From assembly GCA_913055695.1 (NCBI GenBank), contig CAJXKF010000002.1, positions 248,001 to 312,000 on the forward strand: a stretch of DNA of 64,000 nucleotides. Reading direction: 5' to 3'. Below the pieces are notes generated by a model. That model saw only the letters and a list, made by a program, of their open reading frames with translations, did not search any database and was not told the DNA's origin. This stretch comes from an uncultured Methylophaga sp. (lineage in GTDB: Bacteria > Pseudomonadota > Gammaproteobacteria > Nitrosococcales > Methylophagaceae). The position numbers were made by a program, and so were the translations under genes. The first letter of the stretch is position 1, and each line of letters opens with the position of its first letter. Shown one piece after another: positions 17,233-25,483 of this stretch.

Positions 17233-18234
17233 ATGTTTAAAGCCTATGCAGCGATGCAGGAAGGAGCGGAACTGGAATTGTTTGAATATGATCCTGGTCC
17301 GATCGCGTCAGATGAAGTTGAAATTGAAGTTGAGAACTGCGGCGTTTGTCACAGTGATCTCAGCATGATTGATAATGAATGGGGTATGAGCAACTATCCC
17401 CTGATAGCCGGCCATGAGGTGATTGGCATCATCCGCGACAAGGGCGATTCAGTCAGTCACTTTCAGACCGGACAACGCGTTGGACTGGGCTGGTTTAAGG
17501 GCTTTTGCAACCACTGCAGTGCCTGCCAGCAGGGCGATCATAACTTATGTGCCACATCGGATATGACCATCGTCGGTCATCATGGCGGCTTTGCCGACAG
17601 AGTCCGTGCTAAAGCAAATTCGGTGGTATTACTGCCTGATGATATCGACCCGCTGAGTGCCGGCCCGATGTTTTGCGGTGGCATTACCGTGTTCAATCCA
17701 TTAGTTCAGTTTAATCTGCCACCGACCAGCAAAGTCGGAGTGATTGGCATCGGCGGTCTTGGTCATATTGCATTGCAGTTTCTGAATGCATGGGGATGTG
17801 AGGTGACCGCTTTCACTTCCAGCGAGGCCAAGCAGCAGGAAGCAAAGTCTCTGGGTGCGCATCACACTATTGATTCCCGTGATCCGCAGGCGCTGGCCGA
17901 TGCGGCAGGACAGTTCGATATGATTATCTCGACCGTCGCTGTCAAACTCGACTGGAATGCCTATCTGAACACACTGGGGCCAAAGGGACGACTTCACTTT
18001 GTCGGGGCGACGACTGAACCGCTGGATCTGAATGTGTTTAACCTGATTATGGCGCAACGCACTGTTTCCGGTTCACCTTCAGGCAGTCCGGAGACGATAC
18101 GCAAGATGCTTGATTTCGCACGACTTCATGACATCAAACCACAGATTGAAACCTTTGCTATGCGGGATATCAATCAGGCCATCCAACACCTTCGTGATGG
18201 CAAACCGCGTTATCGAATTGTGCTGCAGAATTAA
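17233..18234 (+). CDS. zinc-dependent alcohol/aldehyde dehydrogenase (YahK/CAD-like MDR)
   Basis: A 333-residue medium-chain dehydrogenase. Catalytic zinc ligands are in G-V-C-H-S-D and G-H-E-V. The structural-zinc cysteine cluster is C-N-H-C-S-A-C...L-C. The NADP-binding fold shows G-I-G-G-L-G-H. Overall it matches the NADPH-dependent aldehyde reductase/cinnamyl-alcohol dehydrogenase-like group (YahK, AdhC-type). It would reduce aldehydes to alcohols in the cytoplasm. GAGGAGGCACC before the ATG at 17233 is a strong ribosome binding site. A nitroreductase follows on the same strand, and both could respond to reactive electrophiles. Confidence 0.88.
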   Translation: MFKAYAAMQEGAELELFEYDPGPIASDEVEIEVENCGVCHSDLSMIDNEWGMSNYPLIAGHEVIGIIRDKGDSVSHFQTGQRVGLGWFKGFCNHCSACQQGDHNLCATSDMTIVGHHGGFADRVRAKANSVVLLPDDIDPLSAGPMFCGGITVFNPLVQFNLPPTSKVGVIGIGGLGHIALQFLNAWGCEVTAFTSSEAKQQEAKSLGAHHTIDSRDPQALADAAGQFDMIISTVAVKLDWNAYLNTLGPKGRLHFVGATTEPLDLNVFNLIMAQRTVSGSPSGSPETIRKMLDFARLHDIKPQIETFAMRDINQAIQHLRDGKPRYRIVLQN

Positions 18235-20948: not shown

Positions 20949-21062
20949 TTTATTTTCCTGATTAATCTCATATCACCGGTCGATATGATTTCAGGGGAAA
21001 GTAGGTTACAAGATCAGCATGTATTTTCATAGGCAACGATGCTATGGGACGTGTTTAAGAAG

Positions 21063-21091
21063 GTAGGTTGGGCTGAAGCATGAAGCCCAAC
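21063..21091 (+). repeat. REP palindrome R1
   Basis: GTAG foot, then stem GTTGGGCT (21067-21074) and AGCCCAAC (21084-21091). Forward orientation; downstream side of the RAYT gene. Confidence 0.85.
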
Positions 21092-21117
21092 GAAACATGA
21101 TGCTTTCGATATAACAA

Positions 21118-21147
21118 CGTAGATTGGGCTGAGGGACGAAGCCCAAC
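21118..21147 (+). repeat. REP palindrome R2
   Basis: GTAG foot followed by ATTGGGCT and AGCCCAAC around the loop; same orientation as R1. Confidence 0.85.
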
Positions 21148-21173
21148 AAACCCAGCAAAAATTGGAGAAATCA

Positions 21174-21203
21174 CGTAGATTGGGCTGACAAAGGAAGCCC
21201 AAC
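21174..21203 (+). repeat. REP palindrome R3
   Basis: GTAG foot, ATTGGGCT and AGCCCAAC; its end lies 3 bases from the stop codon of the RAYT gene. Confidence 0.85.
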
Positions 21204-21206
21204 CAA

Positions 21207-21734
21207 TCACTCACCAAAAAAACCATCTCCAGACTCAATAAAGCCCCAGTCAGGCATCAACAGCCCCTCTCTCATGTACCGATGAATGCTTGAATAAGGC
21301 CAGTCAATGGCTTTATCGACATAGCCATGCTTCACCGGATTATAGTGAATGTAATCCACATGCCGCTCATAATCGGTTTCATCTCGAATGAGATGTTCCC
21401 AGAACCGGCGTTGCCAGATACCACGCTCACGTTTTTTGATGCGACTCGACTTGAGATTTTCAGTCTTGGGTAATGATCTTGAAAACGCCGACTTGATTAA
21501 CATCCAGCGTTTGGAGAAATCCGCATCGCCATCAGGCAGCGTCCAGAGTGCATGAAGGTGATCAGGCAGGATCACCATCGCATCGATATAGAAAGGATGT
21601 TTTTGTTTGACGTTAAGCACGCAACGCCGCAGTAAATAAATATGATCGGTCAGAAGAGACTGTTGCCGATCAAGCAGATTAACCGTAAAGAAATAAGTGG
21701 CGCCCGCCACATCAGCACGTCGATAACGCATCAT
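21207..21734 (-). CDS. REP-associated tyrosine transposase (RAYT)
   Basis: A 175-residue IS200/TnpA-related Y1 transposase. The metal-binding HUH motif is H-L-H in V-I-L-P-D-H-L-H-A-L-W. The catalytic Tyr is in Y-I-H-Y-N-P-V-K-H-G. W-x-x-R-F-W-E-H and R-D-E-T-D-Y-E-R-H are typical of RAYTs. Known RAYTs bind and cleave REP hairpins at a GTAG-like foot and are single-copy domesticated transposases. Seven REP units with a GTAG foot lie within 1.3 kb around this gene, matching the arrangement called a REPtron. Start ATG 21734 has AAGGA 6 bases upstream. Confidence 0.92.
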   Translation of the reverse strand: MMRYRRADVAGATYFFTVNLLDRQQSLLTDHIYLLRRCVLNVKQKHPFYIDAMVILPDHLHALWTLPDGDADFSKRWMLIKSAFSRSLPKTENLKSSRIKKRERGIWQRRFWEHLIRDETDYERHVDYIHYNPVKHGYVDKAIDWPYSSIHRYMREGLLMPDWGFIESGDGFFGE

Positions 21735-21804
21735 TCACAATCCTTGTGAAATTTAAAATCTTTATCACTAGAATTTATCAGCCAAACACCAAACCTGCAA
21801 AATA

Positions 21805-21834
21805 CGTAGGTTGAGCTAAAGCATGAAGCCCAAC
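21805..21834 (+). repeat. REP palindrome R4
   Basis: GTAG foot with stem GTTGAGCT / AGCCCAAC (one mismatch). Forward copy of the R4/R5 inverted pair upstream of RAYT. Confidence 0.8.
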
Positions 21835-21859
21835 GTGGACTAGGATTCAAACTTTGATT

Positions 21860-21888
21860 GTTGGGCTTCGTTCCTCAGCCCAACCTAC
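21860..21888 (-). repeat. REP palindrome R5
   Basis: Inverted copy: GTTGGGCT, loop, AGCCCAAC, then CTAC (the foot on the other strand). Forms a BIME-like pair with R4. Confidence 0.85.
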
Positions 21889-22007
21889 CTTTTATCATCG
21901 GTCAGGCTGGCTCGATCCATTGCTAGTTTTCCAGACAAAGGTGTAGATTCATTCTTAAAACGATTACATTCACCTCAGTGCTGATTAAGTTTAAAAAAGG
22001 AAGCAAC

Positions 22008-22202
22008 ATGCAGAAGGTTTATAAGAAAGAGGCATTCAAGCTTCTCAAGCTTGGCGTTGTGGGATTTTTACTGGTCATTATTCTGGTACTGGCAGGAGAA
22101 AAAATGACGGGTATAGAAATGCTGATATTGGCTATCACCCCATATATTCTTTACCAACTTTACTGTGTGTTTAATAGGGTAAGACGTGCTAAGAAGAAGT
22201 AA
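22008..22202 (+). CDS. small two-helix membrane protein
   Basis: A 64-residue protein with a basic N-terminus (M-Q-K-V-Y-K-K-E), two hydrophobic segments (about 14-32 and 40-52) and a basic C-terminal tail R-V-R-R-A-K-K-K. AAAGGAAG precedes the ATG at 22008. It lies between the two REP inverted pairs. No family is recognised. It could be a passenger of the REP region or a small orphan gene. Confidence 0.55.
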   Translation: MQKVYKKEAFKLLKLGVVGFLLVIILVLAGEKMTGIEMLILAITPYILYQLYCVFNRVRRAKKK

Positions 22203-22257
22203 TTCCCTGACTTGACTACCTCGTGCCTGACCCTTTGATTCTATAGCCTGGAACAGT

Positions 22258-22286
22258 GTAGGTTGGGCTGAAGCATGAAGCCCAAC
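22258..22286 (+). repeat. REP palindrome R6
   Basis: Same 29-base unit as R1, starting GTAGG and ending AGCCCAAC. Forward copy of the R6/R7 pair. Confidence 0.85.
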
Positions 22287-22333
22287 GAGGGGCTAGGATT
22301 CAAAGCTTGGGAGGATTTCGATTTGTTTTGATT

Positions 22334-22363
22334 GTTGGGCTTCGTTCCTCAGCCCAACCTACG
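22334..22363 (-). repeat. REP palindrome R7
   Basis: Inverted unit ending in CCAACCTACG. With R6 it repeats the R4/R5 arrangement, including a shared CTAGGATTCAAA linker start. Confidence 0.85.
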
Positions 22364-22478: not shown

Positions 22479-23075
22479 TTAAATATTTTGAGCCAACTCA
22501 GTGATTCTGTGTTTAGCCCTAGCCAAACTGGTAGAGCGAGAGTTTGCTCTGGATATACTCCAGTTATGGAAAACGAATTGTCTAAGGAGGTCATTGTATC
22601 CGATTCCTTGAACAGGGCCGCCACCATGATTCGCAACTAATTCTTTTTTGAGCGCTGATGGAGAGTAGCGCGTAACCAAATTCAGGAGTGTTTGCTTCGG
22701 GTCAGGGAGTGATTCTGGTGCATCCGGCAGTTTGTTCAAAGGTATATTTGCGTAGCCTGAAAAGCCCTCTTTATCAGCTAATAACCAGGCCTCAACTTCA
22801 CGTACAGCAACCCTAAATAATAAATTATCGGGTTTATGCAAAGTCCCCAACCATTGAGCCTGTATGCTAGAAGCACATGCATTTGAATCAAGATCAGTCA
22901 ACATTATTACTGGGATATTTGGTGCTATACCAACCAGCTCTGGAAGCTTTTTTTTTAAAAAACCGTTACCTTTTTCGCCAAAAGTGACTGCGATTTCTAA
23001 GTCGGTTCCTTGAATAAGTTTTTCTAAAATGTAAGTGCTGAGTTTATCTTCTGTGGCAATGTAAATTGGTTTCAT
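22479..23075 (-). CDS. TOPRIM-like putative nuclease, partner of ATPase
   Basis: A 198-residue protein. It has I-A-T-E-D near the N-terminus (Glu9), M-L-T-D-L-D-S (Asp61, Asp63), and V-R-E-V-E-A-W-L-L-A-D (Glu93/95), the acidic pattern of TOPRIM/OLD-type nucleases such as DUF4276/DUF4435 proteins. This points to metal-dependent cleavage of DNA or RNA, not proven. Its start, ATG 23075, overlaps the ATPase stop (ATGA), so translation is coupled. In two-gene anti-phage systems such as PARIS an ATPase/TOPRIM-like pair has this form; here it is not a recognised match. Confidence 0.65.
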   Translation of the reverse strand: MKPIYIATEDKLSTYILEKLIQGTDLEIAVTFGEKGNGFLKKKLPELVGIAPNIPVIMLTDLDSNACASSIQAQWLGTLHKPDNLLFRVAVREVEAWLLADKEGFSGYANIPLNKLPDAPESLPDPKQTLLNLVTRYSPSALKKELVANHGGGPVQGIGYNDLLRQFVFHNWSISRANSRSTSLARAKHRITELAQNI

Positions 23076-24226
23076 TCCCACAACCCCAATTGTTCAATAC
23101 CTTTAGGCCGAGTCTGAGGTAATACCACTTCAGCAATGCTCAAACCAGCTTTAAGACCTTCTGATTCAGCCTCGTTAACCGGACGTATCGTGGTTCCTTC
23201 ACGACTAGGCTCCAGAACAGACAGACCCCTCGGGTCTATTCCTGCATTATTTAGTAACGCTTCGCTATGTGTGCTTATTAGTACTTGGCGCTTAATTTTT
23301 CGGCCGCGTTGTATACGTTCGACCATTGCAGGGATTTGTTCGACCACTGCCTGATGAAGAGAGAGTTCTGGTTCTTCTAGTAACAACAAGCCATTGCCGT
23401 CCAGTAGGGACCACATTAGACCAATCAACCGAAGAGTACCATCGGAAAAGTGCTCTTCGCTCTGCCAACCTGCATTTGGTCGGTGATGTTCATACAAAGC
23501 TTCGAGATGAGGATGTCCCATTGCGTCTTTTTCGAAGCGAAGCTCTCTGAATTGTGGAACAGCTACAGCTAATGCGGTTTGTATACGTTTTAACCGTGAG
23601 TCACGTGTTTTTTTGGTTGTATTTGCAAGTCGTTCAAGGAAGCCCTGGCCGAAAGGGTCATCTTCTAATCTGTTCCCGCCAATTTTTTCGCCAAATTTCA
23701 GTAGTTGGGGAACTAAATGTAAATACGTAGTATCCGAGAAGAAATCTACAAGCTCACGAAATTGACGGTTTGCCAGAGTTTGCTCCAAGTGCGTCTCGGT
23801 AAGTAATAAAGAGTCCGTCTTTTCCTCAAGTGAAGGCCTGTTAAGAAGCTCATCGTCACCACACCAGACTTGTTCTGTAGTAATTACAATTCGCTGCTTT
23901 CCCTTACCTTCAGTTCGAAACCCTAAAACATAACGCCACACAGTTGCATCAGCTTCATAACTTTTTGTTAAATGAACTTCAATGCGAACTTCTGGATCTC
24001 TTCGATGGTGTAAACAACGAAGTTTTGTAATACCCCCTCGATCCTTAACGGCCTTTTGCAAACCTCCGCCTTCGGGTTTTGACACATCACGTAAAAACCG
24101 AAAAACATCTAGTAAATTAGACTTCCCTGAGGCGTTAGGACCAATTATGTATGACTGTCGAGCCATATTGAGTTCAGCGCTACGGAAATTTCGCCAGTTC
24201 TTCAGTTTTAAGTGGGTTATAAACAT
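23072..24226 (-). CDS. RecF/ABC-type ATPase of putative two-gene defence module
   Basis: A 384-residue AAA_21-type ATPase. It begins L-K-L-K-N-W-R-N-F, as RecF/OLD proteins do. Walker A is G-P-N-A-S-G-K-S (29-36), the ABC signature F-S-D-G-T-L-R (260-266), Walker B L-L-L-L-E-E-P-E-L-S-L-H (280-291), and the H-loop S-T-H-S (318-321). There is no fused nuclease; the coupled gene downstream supplies a TOPRIM-like domain. In other species such ATPases sense phage proteins or DNA and activate the nuclease. The neighbouring REP and orphan genes mark a variable region, which fits that role but does not prove it. Confidence 0.75.
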   Translation of the reverse strand: MFITHLKLKNWRNFRSAELNMARQSYIIGPNASGKSNLLDVFRFLRDVSKPEGGGLQKAVKDRGGITKLRCLHHRRDPEVRIEVHLTKSYEADATVWRYVLGFRTEGKGKQRIVITTEQVWCGDDELLNRPSLEEKTDSLLLTETHLEQTLANRQFRELVDFFSDTTYLHLVPQLLKFGEKIGGNRLEDDPFGQGFLERLANTTKKTRDSRLKRIQTALAVAVPQFRELRFEKDAMGHPHLEALYEHHRPNAGWQSEEHFSDGTLRLIGLMWSLLDGNGLLLLEEPELSLHQAVVEQIPAMVERIQRGRKIKRQVLISTHSEALLNNAGIDPRGLSVLEPSREGTTIRPVNEAESEGLKAGLSIAEVVLPQTRPKGIEQLGLWE

Positions 24227-24365: not shown

Positions 24366-24992
24366 TCACGGTTCAACTTTTATCTTATTAATCATCACTT
24401 TTGAAGAATGTTGCCGCTGGTTTTTCAAAATGAACTCACCTCGTGAGAGTTTGCTATATGCTTGTAGTGACATCCATGCATATAAACCAAATACGGGAAT
24501 AGTAAAAGCCAACAAAGAAAGAAAATTTGAGATTTCTAACTTAAACACTGACGATAATATCCAAGGTGATAAAGCTGCAAATGCCAGGATAAAATATAAA
24601 GACAGGTACATTTTCTTTCTCCAAAGCCGAGAGAAATTGGATTTGTACTTGTCTTTAAATCTCAGCTTAAAATCACCGTCTGTTTCTAACCTTTCAAAAA
24701 GTTGCTTGGATAAAACAAAATCATTGAGACATTGGATAGGGTTTTCGAGGGAGAGAATATACTTTATCTCACTCGCTTTCACTGCGGTTGTTCCAGCAAT
24801 CGCTTGATAGCCTTTTCCTAGAGTGTATGGGTGAAGATTTTCTTTATCTGTTTGATCTAAAAATTCTTTAGCAAATTTATACTCTTCTCTGTAGTTTGTT
24901 CTTCTTACAAGAAAAACATCAAATAAAATCTTTGCCGCTGTAATTATTCCAACCACAGCTAATATAAGTTTGGTAACTAATTCCCACTCCAT
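24366..24992 (-). CDS. uncharacterised membrane protein
   Basis: A 208-residue protein with an N-terminal hydrophobic helix (about 7-28), a soluble middle region rich in Lys, Glu and aromatic residues, and two hydrophobic segments near 129-148 and 157-175, followed by a basic tail. TCGGAAAT precedes the ATG at 24992. No family is recognised. It lies upstream of the ATPase/TOPRIM-like pair, same strand, 140 bases away; it may be an independent cargo gene. A+T content is higher than in the flanking core genes. Confidence 0.55.
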   Translation of the reverse strand: MEWELVTKLILAVVGIITAAKILFDVFLVRRTNYREEYKFAKEFLDQTDKENLHPYTLGKGYQAIAGTTAVKASEIKYILSLENPIQCLNDFVLSKQLFERLETDGDFKLRFKDKYKSNFSRLWRKKMYLSLYFILAFAALSPWILSSVFKLEISNFLSLLAFTIPVFGLYAWMSLQAYSKLSRGEFILKNQRQHSSKVMINKIKVEP

Positions 24993-25088: not shown

Positions 25089-25421
25089 TTATGGGAGTTC
25101 CGCTCTTCGTGTTAATTTGATTCCAATTTTCATTGCTGGATTTTCGACCATATGTCCTTGAAGGATAAATTCCTTGTGCTCGGGCTTGCCAGTTAAACTT
25201 AGTGTGAATTCATCGATATTACCGAATATAGATTGGAGTATTTTTCTATCATTTGTACATTTCACTTGGGCGGTGATTACCCCGTTTTCAATGCTATAAC
25301 TGCCGACAAAAATAAATGAAGAATCCCCGCCAAGAATACGTCCAGTTTCTAAAACCGCGACACCATACCCAGCGTCATTCATGTTCGATGCGAACTCAAC
25401 TCCGTATAAAGCTTCTATCAT
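25089..25421 (-). CDS. GrlR-like protein
   Basis: A 110-residue protein starting M-I-E-A-L-Y-G-V-E-F, with G-V-A-V-L-E-T-G-R-I-L-G-G-D-S and V-G-S-Y-S. This is the layout of GrlR-family proteins, named after the LEE type III secretion regulator, but in most bacteria they occur without any secretion system. Here too no secretion gene is seen, so the role is unknown. AAGGGA lies 7 bases before the ATG at 25421. Confidence 0.6.
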   Translation of the reverse strand: MIEALYGVEFASNMNDAGYGVAVLETGRILGGDSSFIFVGSYSIENGVITAQVKCTNDRKILQSIFGNIDEFTLSLTGKPEHKEFILQGHMVENPAMKIGIKLTRRAELP

Positions 25422-25452
25422 CTATCATTCCCTTCGTTAATGATTAAAAATA

Positions 25453-25480
25453 AAAAGCCGACTATGGAAAGTCGGCTTTT
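25453..25480 (-). terminator. terminator after nrdB
   Basis: AAAAGCCGACT/AGTCGGCTTTT stem of 11 bp (25453-25463 with 25470-25480) just beyond the nrdB stop, with T-runs on both strands. Confidence 0.9.
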
Positions 25481-25483
25481 TTG

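Follow-up and report, generated by a model that had tools for sequence, protein, structure and literature searches.

A HEC-01-type pair of overlapping ATPase and TOPRIM-fold genes near nrdB of an uncultured Methylophaga sp. as a candidate anti-phage module

Do the two overlapping genes on the 3' side of nrdB in an uncultured Methylophaga sp. form a defence module, and which known system do they resemble most? The locus lies in a 64,000-nucleotide stretch of contig CAJXKF010000002.1 (referred to as the window), in which a first-pass annotation, made from the sequence alone, had proposed a candidate anti-phage module consisting of an ATPase and a TOPRIM-type protein. This proposal was supported by the predicted TOPRIM fold, the recurrence of the pair, the embedding of some relatives in restriction-modification (R-M) operons, and the defence genes present at the nrdB spot of relatives. 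The features concerned are listed in Table 1.

Table 1. Features of the gene pair and its surroundings (positions in the window).
Feature	Position	Strand	Size and basis
REP-associated tyrosine transposase	21207-21734		NF047646, 8.4e-61
Small gene; stand-alone TOPRIM-fold protein, DUF4276-like, HEC-01B-like, presumed nuclease effector	22479..23075	-	198 aa; Pfam, PADLOC, conservation, structure model
ATGA overlap; ATPase stop codon/TOPRIM gene start codon	23072..23075	-	ORF reading
ATPase gene; OLD/RecF-type ABC ATPase, HEC-01A-like, presumed sensor/regulator	23072..24226	-	384 aa; Pfam, PADLOC, structure model
Orphan gene, upstream of the pair	24366..24992	-	208 aa; context
Very weakly GrlR-like gene, between nrdB and the orphan	25089..25421	-	110 aa; context
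Terminator hairpin directly 3' of nrdB; core-side edge of the pair's variable region	25452..25481	-	Context

The translated ATPase frame contained all of the motifs quoted by the first-pass annotation, GPNASGKS (residues 29-36), FSDGTLR (260-266), LLLLEEPELSLH, and STHS, and the earlier description as a RecF/OLD-like ATPase with full ABC motifs was confirmed by matches to Pfam AAA_21 (8.7e-32) and AAA_15 (1.6e-14). The open reading frame of the small gene begins at a GTG (position 23081; 200 aa), two codons upstream of an in-frame ATG (position 23075) that yields 198 aa; counting from this ATG, the annotated ATGA overlap with a 198-residue protein was found at 23072-23075, and may couple the translation of the two genes. 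In the 198-aa numbering, E9, D61, D63, E93, and E95 were all there. The GC content of the pair was 43.2% versus 49.3% for the window (5th percentile). No Rfam family was detected at the gathering score between positions 18000 and 30000, and a promoter scan found 3 candidates versus 6.0 in shuffles.

Both proteins matched the HEC-01 models of PADLOC from end to end: the ATPase with HEC-01A (PDLC04180; 1.3e-152, residues 1-381 on 1-379 of 382), and the small protein with HEC-01B (PDLC04193; 4e-54, residues 3-198 of the 200-aa frame on 1-194 of 195). The view that the pair was no obvious exact match to any known system therefore had to be abandoned. The family name was adopted because HEC-01 was by far the best match among the models compared, and the window pair is a well-formed member of this catalogued candidate defence family, with open frames and active-site residues kept. 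The ATPase gave weaker PADLOC matches with AriA (3.5e-31), AbiLi (1.3e-21), mad3 (3.6e-19), and GajA (2.1e-13). A known housekeeping assignment, which the first-pass annotation had set against its own proposal, was not obtained: no housekeeping model reached its cut-off (RecF, 32.1 bits versus 172). HEC stands for Hma-embedded candidate, and HEC-01 has one listing among the systems of Desulfovibrio piger (PMC12724379, in part). HEC-05 and HEC-06 are discussed in a further study (PMC11411939, in part), and several HECs including HEC-06 have been reported to be active (PMC12988326, in part); the term HEC was not found in the available part of the PADLOC server paper (PMC9252829), and no description of the mechanism of HEC-01 was found in the open literature. 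Our main reading, to which we assign a probability of roughly 0.65, is that the pair is a HEC-01-type two-gene defence module, in which an OLD-family ABC ATPase and a stand-alone TOPRIM nuclease act in a PARIS-like, abortive manner.

Relatives were collected by a scan with an ATPase profile, using one genome per species, and the best 80 of at least 310 confirmed loci were kept; all locus counts below refer to this best 80. They span Pseudomonadota, Bacteroidota, Cyanobacteriota, Acidobacteriota, Poribacteria, and others. An open frame for the small protein (at least 172 aa) was located directly downstream of the ATPase gene in 71 of the best 80 loci (70 analysed together, and L113 with 198 aa, read separately). 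By comparison of neighbourhoods, which had been put forward as a check, the pair recurred as a unit across phyla. A start codon was present within -14 to +8 of the ATPase stop in all of the 70 relatives counted, and the -4 overlap was found in 43 of them, a number inflated by the script's preference for the start codon closest to this site. The ATPase and small-protein identity matrices were correlated (r 0.78; 0 of 999 permutations as high; 71 pairs, with kinship ignored), and shared ancestry adds to this correlation. In three-frame translations read by eye, the small gene was broken or a remnant beside an open ATPase gene in seven of the best 80 loci (L087, L092, L098, L107, L108, L117, and L118); the contig ended at the small-gene position in L100, and L097 had no recognisable small gene. 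The broken genes are possibly a sign of effector cost; since the loci were chosen by their ATPase match, their excess over broken ATPase genes is biased and unusable as evidence.

In nine of the best 80 loci (of at least 310), the pair was inserted between a type III-like methylase gene (mod) and a ResIII helicase gene (res): L061, L071, L074, L079, L085, L087, L090, L099, and L102. Neither mod nor res was detected at E<=1e-10 in the flanks of 71 of the 80 loci, and at least 500 bp of sequence beyond the small gene was available in 73. The methylase of L061 (Ectothiorhodospira mobilis) matched PADLOC MTase_III (PDLC03632; 2.2e-166), and the ResIII helicase beside the pair gave a weak match to REase_III (2.3e-15). 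Among the best 80 loci, the ATPase of this embedded locus was the second-closest to that of the window (76% identity); the closest (78%) was from Billgrantia (L049), which is not embedded, and whose neighbours resemble metabolic or housekeeping genes by eye. The window, L049, and L061 formed a group in the ATPase tree at 100/100. The embedded label required at least eight changes on this tree, all forced by starred branches; since these changes may be gains or losses, the pair entered or left the mod-res place many times.

When 274 genomes of the class were searched for the L061 helicase, 17 had a match at E<=1e-40; the mod-res gap was read in six of these, whose full-length matches were the closest (48-65% identity). 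The two genes were adjacent with an empty gap in L194, and were separated by a PIN-like protein in L193; in L195, the gap contained an ATPase gene together with a 217-aa frame and an OLD-like fusion of ATPase and TOPRIM (the latter two loci by sequence reading). For the other three, the stretch covered the upstream side of res with mod outside it, and the genes just upstream of res encoded an ATPase with a 192-aa protein in L155, a ThiF-like protein with one of 140 aa in L156 (sequence reading), and a HEC-01 pair in L158. Many nearest genes of the pair in the best 80 loci were housekeeping genes. ResIII was matched by 8 of the 130 nearest-gene ORFs, and was not among the families matched by at least two of the 132 distant ORFs. 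PADLOC families numbered 160 near and 34 far, but these are counts of models, not of proteins, and exaggerate the contrast; the commonest family had 7 members of 130 near versus 1 of 132 far. The near set contained 130 of 145 nearest ORFs (11 ORFs from repeated Poribacteria contexts, two of L128, and one of L107 and of L117 were dropped), and the far set 132 of 145, drawn from 260 far ORFs; sequences longer than 1000 aa were excluded from both, and the L061 and L079 mod genes were thereby lost. As a tentative extension of the main reading, the HEC-01 subfamily might be a mobile guard module of R-M, which would re-enter the type III-like mod-res gap, and whose TOPRIM protein would fire on phage-blocked restriction; the free copy on the nrdB side would then guard other restriction or host functions. 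On this view, the gap would be occupied in alternation by OLD-like ATPases, PIN-like proteins, and ThiF-like modules.

The recurrent pairing might also serve addiction. The TOPRIM protein would then be a toxin held by the ATPase, as in a toxin-antitoxin system, and the pair would stabilise islands rather than stop phages. The overlap and joint occurrence of the genes agree with this, as does the Pfam text on AAA_21, which names a putative AbiEii toxin of a type IV TA system; the seven of the best 80 loci with a broken small gene and an open ATPase gene are expected if the former is costly, and come from the ATPase-selected, biased set. We consider addiction improbable, because the arrangement is close to that of PARIS, which serves defence (PMC12409363, in part), and because a guard role agrees better with the embedding in R-M operons.

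The pair is sporadic. Within the genus, a close match was found in one of 24 genomes, the window's own; among the 23 other genomes (completeness of 55-100%, several incomplete), G016 had a remote match to the small protein (2.6e-4, 30% identity). In this remote pair (L002, contig 9), the ATPase pieces showed 29-31% identity, and the contig was other than that of nrdB. HEC-01B was detected in 16 of 369 genomes of a class sample (7 at E<1e-15) and in 30 of 398 genomes of a phylum sample (6 at E<1e-15), with 0 of 14 controls in each case. Syntenic conservation in all relatives, named beforehand as evidence against the proposal, was not seen. No copy was found in plasmids and phages (tblastn) or in viral contigs (pattern scan), whereas many defence genes occur on plasmids or phages. 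This counts against the defence reading, as do the 71 of the best 80 loci with flanks free of mod and res and the many housekeeping neighbours.

The 3' side of nrdB was examined in 17 of the 23 other genomes of the genus (three stretches were shorter than 2 kb), and none of the four island genes of the window was found there by tblastn. Nineteen ORFs picked by eye were compared with PADLOC or Pfam (one with both). CBASS cyclases were present in G005 and G010 (each with E1-E2 proteins) and in G008 (with a phospholipase effector). G014 had a type I methylase and restriction enzyme, G013 an nSTAND ATPase, G002 an HNH-type N-terminus with DUF2971, and G017 a weak Avs1b match (1.1e-10). TnsA was identified by Pfam in G003 (L176), G005 (L177), and G019 (L183), and TnsB-, TniB-, and TniQ-type proteins in G023 (L178); G004 had a 744-aa frame without any match, and no defence gene was seen by eye in G009. 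The nrdB gene of G003 was 99% identical to that of the window, and tnsA was located on its 3' side. By eye, the nrdB terminator was lost in nine of the 17 genomes, and it was kept in the window. The nrdB side is a variable spot of the genus, with firm defence genes in four of the 17 stretches and suggestive ones in three more, and the pair is one content of this spot. Among the papers listed by a literature search, none mentioned nrdB, and "nrd" did not occur in PMC10293859 or PMC8649781.

Tn7-like genes were observed 0.1-5 kb downstream of nrdB in L176, L177, L178, and L183, in which sequences with TGT and repeated motifs replaced the nrdB terminator (by eye); this suggests that the 3' end of nrdB is an insertion site of Tn7-like elements. 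The window copy in its present state was rejected as Tn7-like cargo: the nrdB terminator is intact, and no tns gene was present in the eight proteins scanned with Pfam (the pair and six neighbours). These surroundings comprise nrdAB (by eye), two orphans, and the REP-associated transposase, homologues of which were also seen 3' of nrdB in L180, L184, and L188. REP-like palindromes had six exact matches in the window and 0 in 100 shuffles, and seven REP-like copies were located at 21056-22362. The REP repeats annotated beside the pair are real and adjacent, but belong to the neighbouring transposase, outside the pair; they were rejected as part of the defence system because the palindromes surround this transposase. 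Three neighbours in the window were compared with the PADLOC defence models, and none matched. For the 208-aa orphan protein, no PADLOC match and no relative in 227 other genomes of the class were found. Hydrophobic stretches (by eye), 34% GC, and a sub-threshold match to HEPN AbiA-CTD (0.014) were also observed in this orphan. The 110-aa protein gave 16.2 bits with NCBIfam GrlR (0.0084; cut-off 205) and had matches in 4 of 227 other genomes of the class.

The predicted ATPase structure (pLDDT 88.4; alignment of 64 of the best 80 loci) was most similar in fold to PtuA (Z 21.6), and matched the heads of Rad50, SMC, and condensin (Z about 19-21) and, among many ABC ATPases, chain 8v46_B of the AriA-AriB complex (Z 19.7). 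The protein is, as modelled, an OLD/Rad50-type ABC ATPase, and this predicted fold by itself leaves the identity of the system unspecified. A pair for DNA repair or chromosome maintenance, with a Rad50- or RecF-like ATPase and a RecR-like TOPRIM protein, acquired by chance and having a housekeeping role, accords with the Rad50, SMC, and condensin matches and with the flanks of the 71 of the best 80 loci that were free of mod and res. It is very unlikely in view of the sporadic occurrence in genus (1/24), class (16/369), and phylum (30/398), the repeated presence between mod and res, and the variable spot that holds CBASS and R-M genes in some relatives; moreover, the defence systems PtuA and AriA-AriB were also among the structural matches.

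The small protein had a single Pfam match, DUF4276, at 29.4 bits, just below the cut-off of 30.2. Its structure, predicted with the window sequence plus 70 relatives (of the best 80 loci), had a mean pLDDT of 96.6 and a pTM of 0.91. The predicted secondary structure elements (E2-8, H11-21, E26-33, H37-50, E56-61, H68-76, and E85-90) follow the strand-helix order of TOPRIM; strand 1 is followed by E9, strand 3 by D61/D63, and strand 4 by E93/E95. No match at E<=0.001 was returned by Foldseek, and the best E value in a sequence search of solved structures was 0.17. VIA-align on the Foldseek candidates ranked first 6nk8, the C-terminal TOPRIM region of B. pseudomallei OLD (Z 9.5, 3.6 A, 161 residues), followed by chain 8ux9_A of the PARIS complex (Z 8.6, 159 residues), 2p62 (8.5), 6njx (OLD; 8.3), and 8v46_D of the AriA-AriB complex (8.3). 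Unrelated folds start at Z 7.7, and because of this small margin the TOPRIM call rests on fold and motif together. Structure prediction, proposed earlier as a check, yielded a TOPRIM fold with high confidence. Chain 8ux9_A is taken as AriB from its length; its alignment starts with model residue 1 against chain residue 18, and E9 would match residue 26, provided that no gap interrupts the first strand. Cleavage fragments were not produced by the E26A mutant of AriB (PMC12409363, in part).

The acidic pattern recognised by the first-pass annotation (E9, D61/D63, and E93/E95) was kept in 69-71 of 71 sequences (the window and 70 relatives of the best 80 loci): E9, D61, D63, C67, E95, W97, G157, and Y160 were invariant, and E93 and K127 were near-invariant (69 and 70 sequences, respectively). 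TOPRIM folds also exist in non-nuclease proteins such as RecR, and one relative, L007, in a separate set of 11, has lost DxD; nevertheless, with E9, D61, D63, and E95 invariant in 71 of 71 sequences, it is hardly to be expected that the TOPRIM component of a PARIS-like module here would cut no nucleic acid and serve a different function, in catalysis or in binding.

For the HEC-01-type defence module, the closest analogue with a known mechanism is PARIS: AriA holds AriB, phage triggers its release, and host tRNA is cut by a TOPRIM site that needs E26 (PMC12409363, in part). By extension, we infer complex formation, nuclease activity, a substrate, a trigger, and an abortive outcome for the present pair as follows. 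Both proteins would be made from one operon, the ATPase serving as sensor and keeper and the TOPRIM protein as effector. In the resting cell, an ATPase oligomer would bind and restrain the TOPRIM protein. A signal of infection, most plausibly an anti-restriction or DNA-mimic protein of the phage, would free or activate the latter, which may cut tRNA (like AriB) or DNA (like OLD and GajA), with metal ions for cleavage held by E9, D61, D63, and E93/E95. After cleavage, the cell would halt phage growth.

HEC-01 sits in a widely used defence-annotation library, and the present analysis contributes the TOPRIM assignment, the conserved residues to mutate, the nrdB spot, and the finding that some relatives are embedded between mod and res. 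The mod-res gap and the variable nrdB spot are contexts that make the defence reading testable. If the guard reading were true, the logic of PARIS (sensing of anti-restriction) would extend to a further family and also to type III restriction.

OLD and GajA share the ATPase family and the TOPRIM fold with the pair, and the best Z of the small protein was with the OLD TOPRIM region; however, one chain holds both domains there, whereas the window has two. Gabija adds the helicase GajB, and no helicase was present among the neighbouring window proteins scanned; Gabija and class 2 OLD were rejected on these two grounds. Septu (PtuAB) was rejected because the partner is a TOPRIM/DUF4276 protein and not the HNH protein PtuB, although PtuA tops the ATPase fold matches. 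AbiL was dropped as a family name because HEC-01 matched far better: AbiLi (1.3e-21) was much weaker than HEC-01A, and no AbiLii was present among the 13 models that the small protein matched at E<=10 in PADLOC, a library that may lack an AbiLii model. MADS was rejected, since the NCBIfam MADS3 model gave 66.9 bits against a cut-off of 420 and the three neighbours tested had no mad match. IbfA (HEC-04) likewise combines ATPase and TOPRIM, but as a single fused protein, reported to be active against T4 and T5 (PMC12111858, in part).

A 2026 survey proposed that TOPRIM-linked OLD-ABC dyads, embedded within the loci of BREX and BREX-related systems, act as backup suicidal effectors (PMC12839542, in part). 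The likeness lies in OLD-ABC and TOPRIM dyads embedded in modification or restriction loci; the difference is that the embedding host here is a type III-like mod-res operon and that the window copy stands alone. According to the same source, coupling of OLD-ABCs with endonucleases had been reported before in RM-like systems, and the type III setting is thus possibly known already.

PARIS shares with the pair an ABC ATPase and a TOPRIM protein in separate genes, and chains of its complex match both proteins structurally (Z 8.3-8.6 for the small protein). On the other hand, the small protein matches DUF4276 in Pfam, whereas AriB is a DUF4435 protein. No DUF4435 match was obtained at E<=1, none of the 13 matches in PADLOC (which may lack an AriB model) was AriB-named, and AriA (3.5e-31) was far weaker than HEC-01A; PARIS was dropped as a family name because HEC-01 matched far better. 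The pair resembles HEC-01 in its two adjacent genes for an ATPase and a small protein, both of which match the models over their whole length. It differs in that the window copy is solitary and outside any Hma operon, the origin of the name, which is not known as a requirement; no Hma match was found among the three window neighbours tested. Hma consists of a helicase, an m5C methylase, and an ATPase (PMC8565338, in part), whereas the embedded relatives reside in a type III-like mod-res operon.
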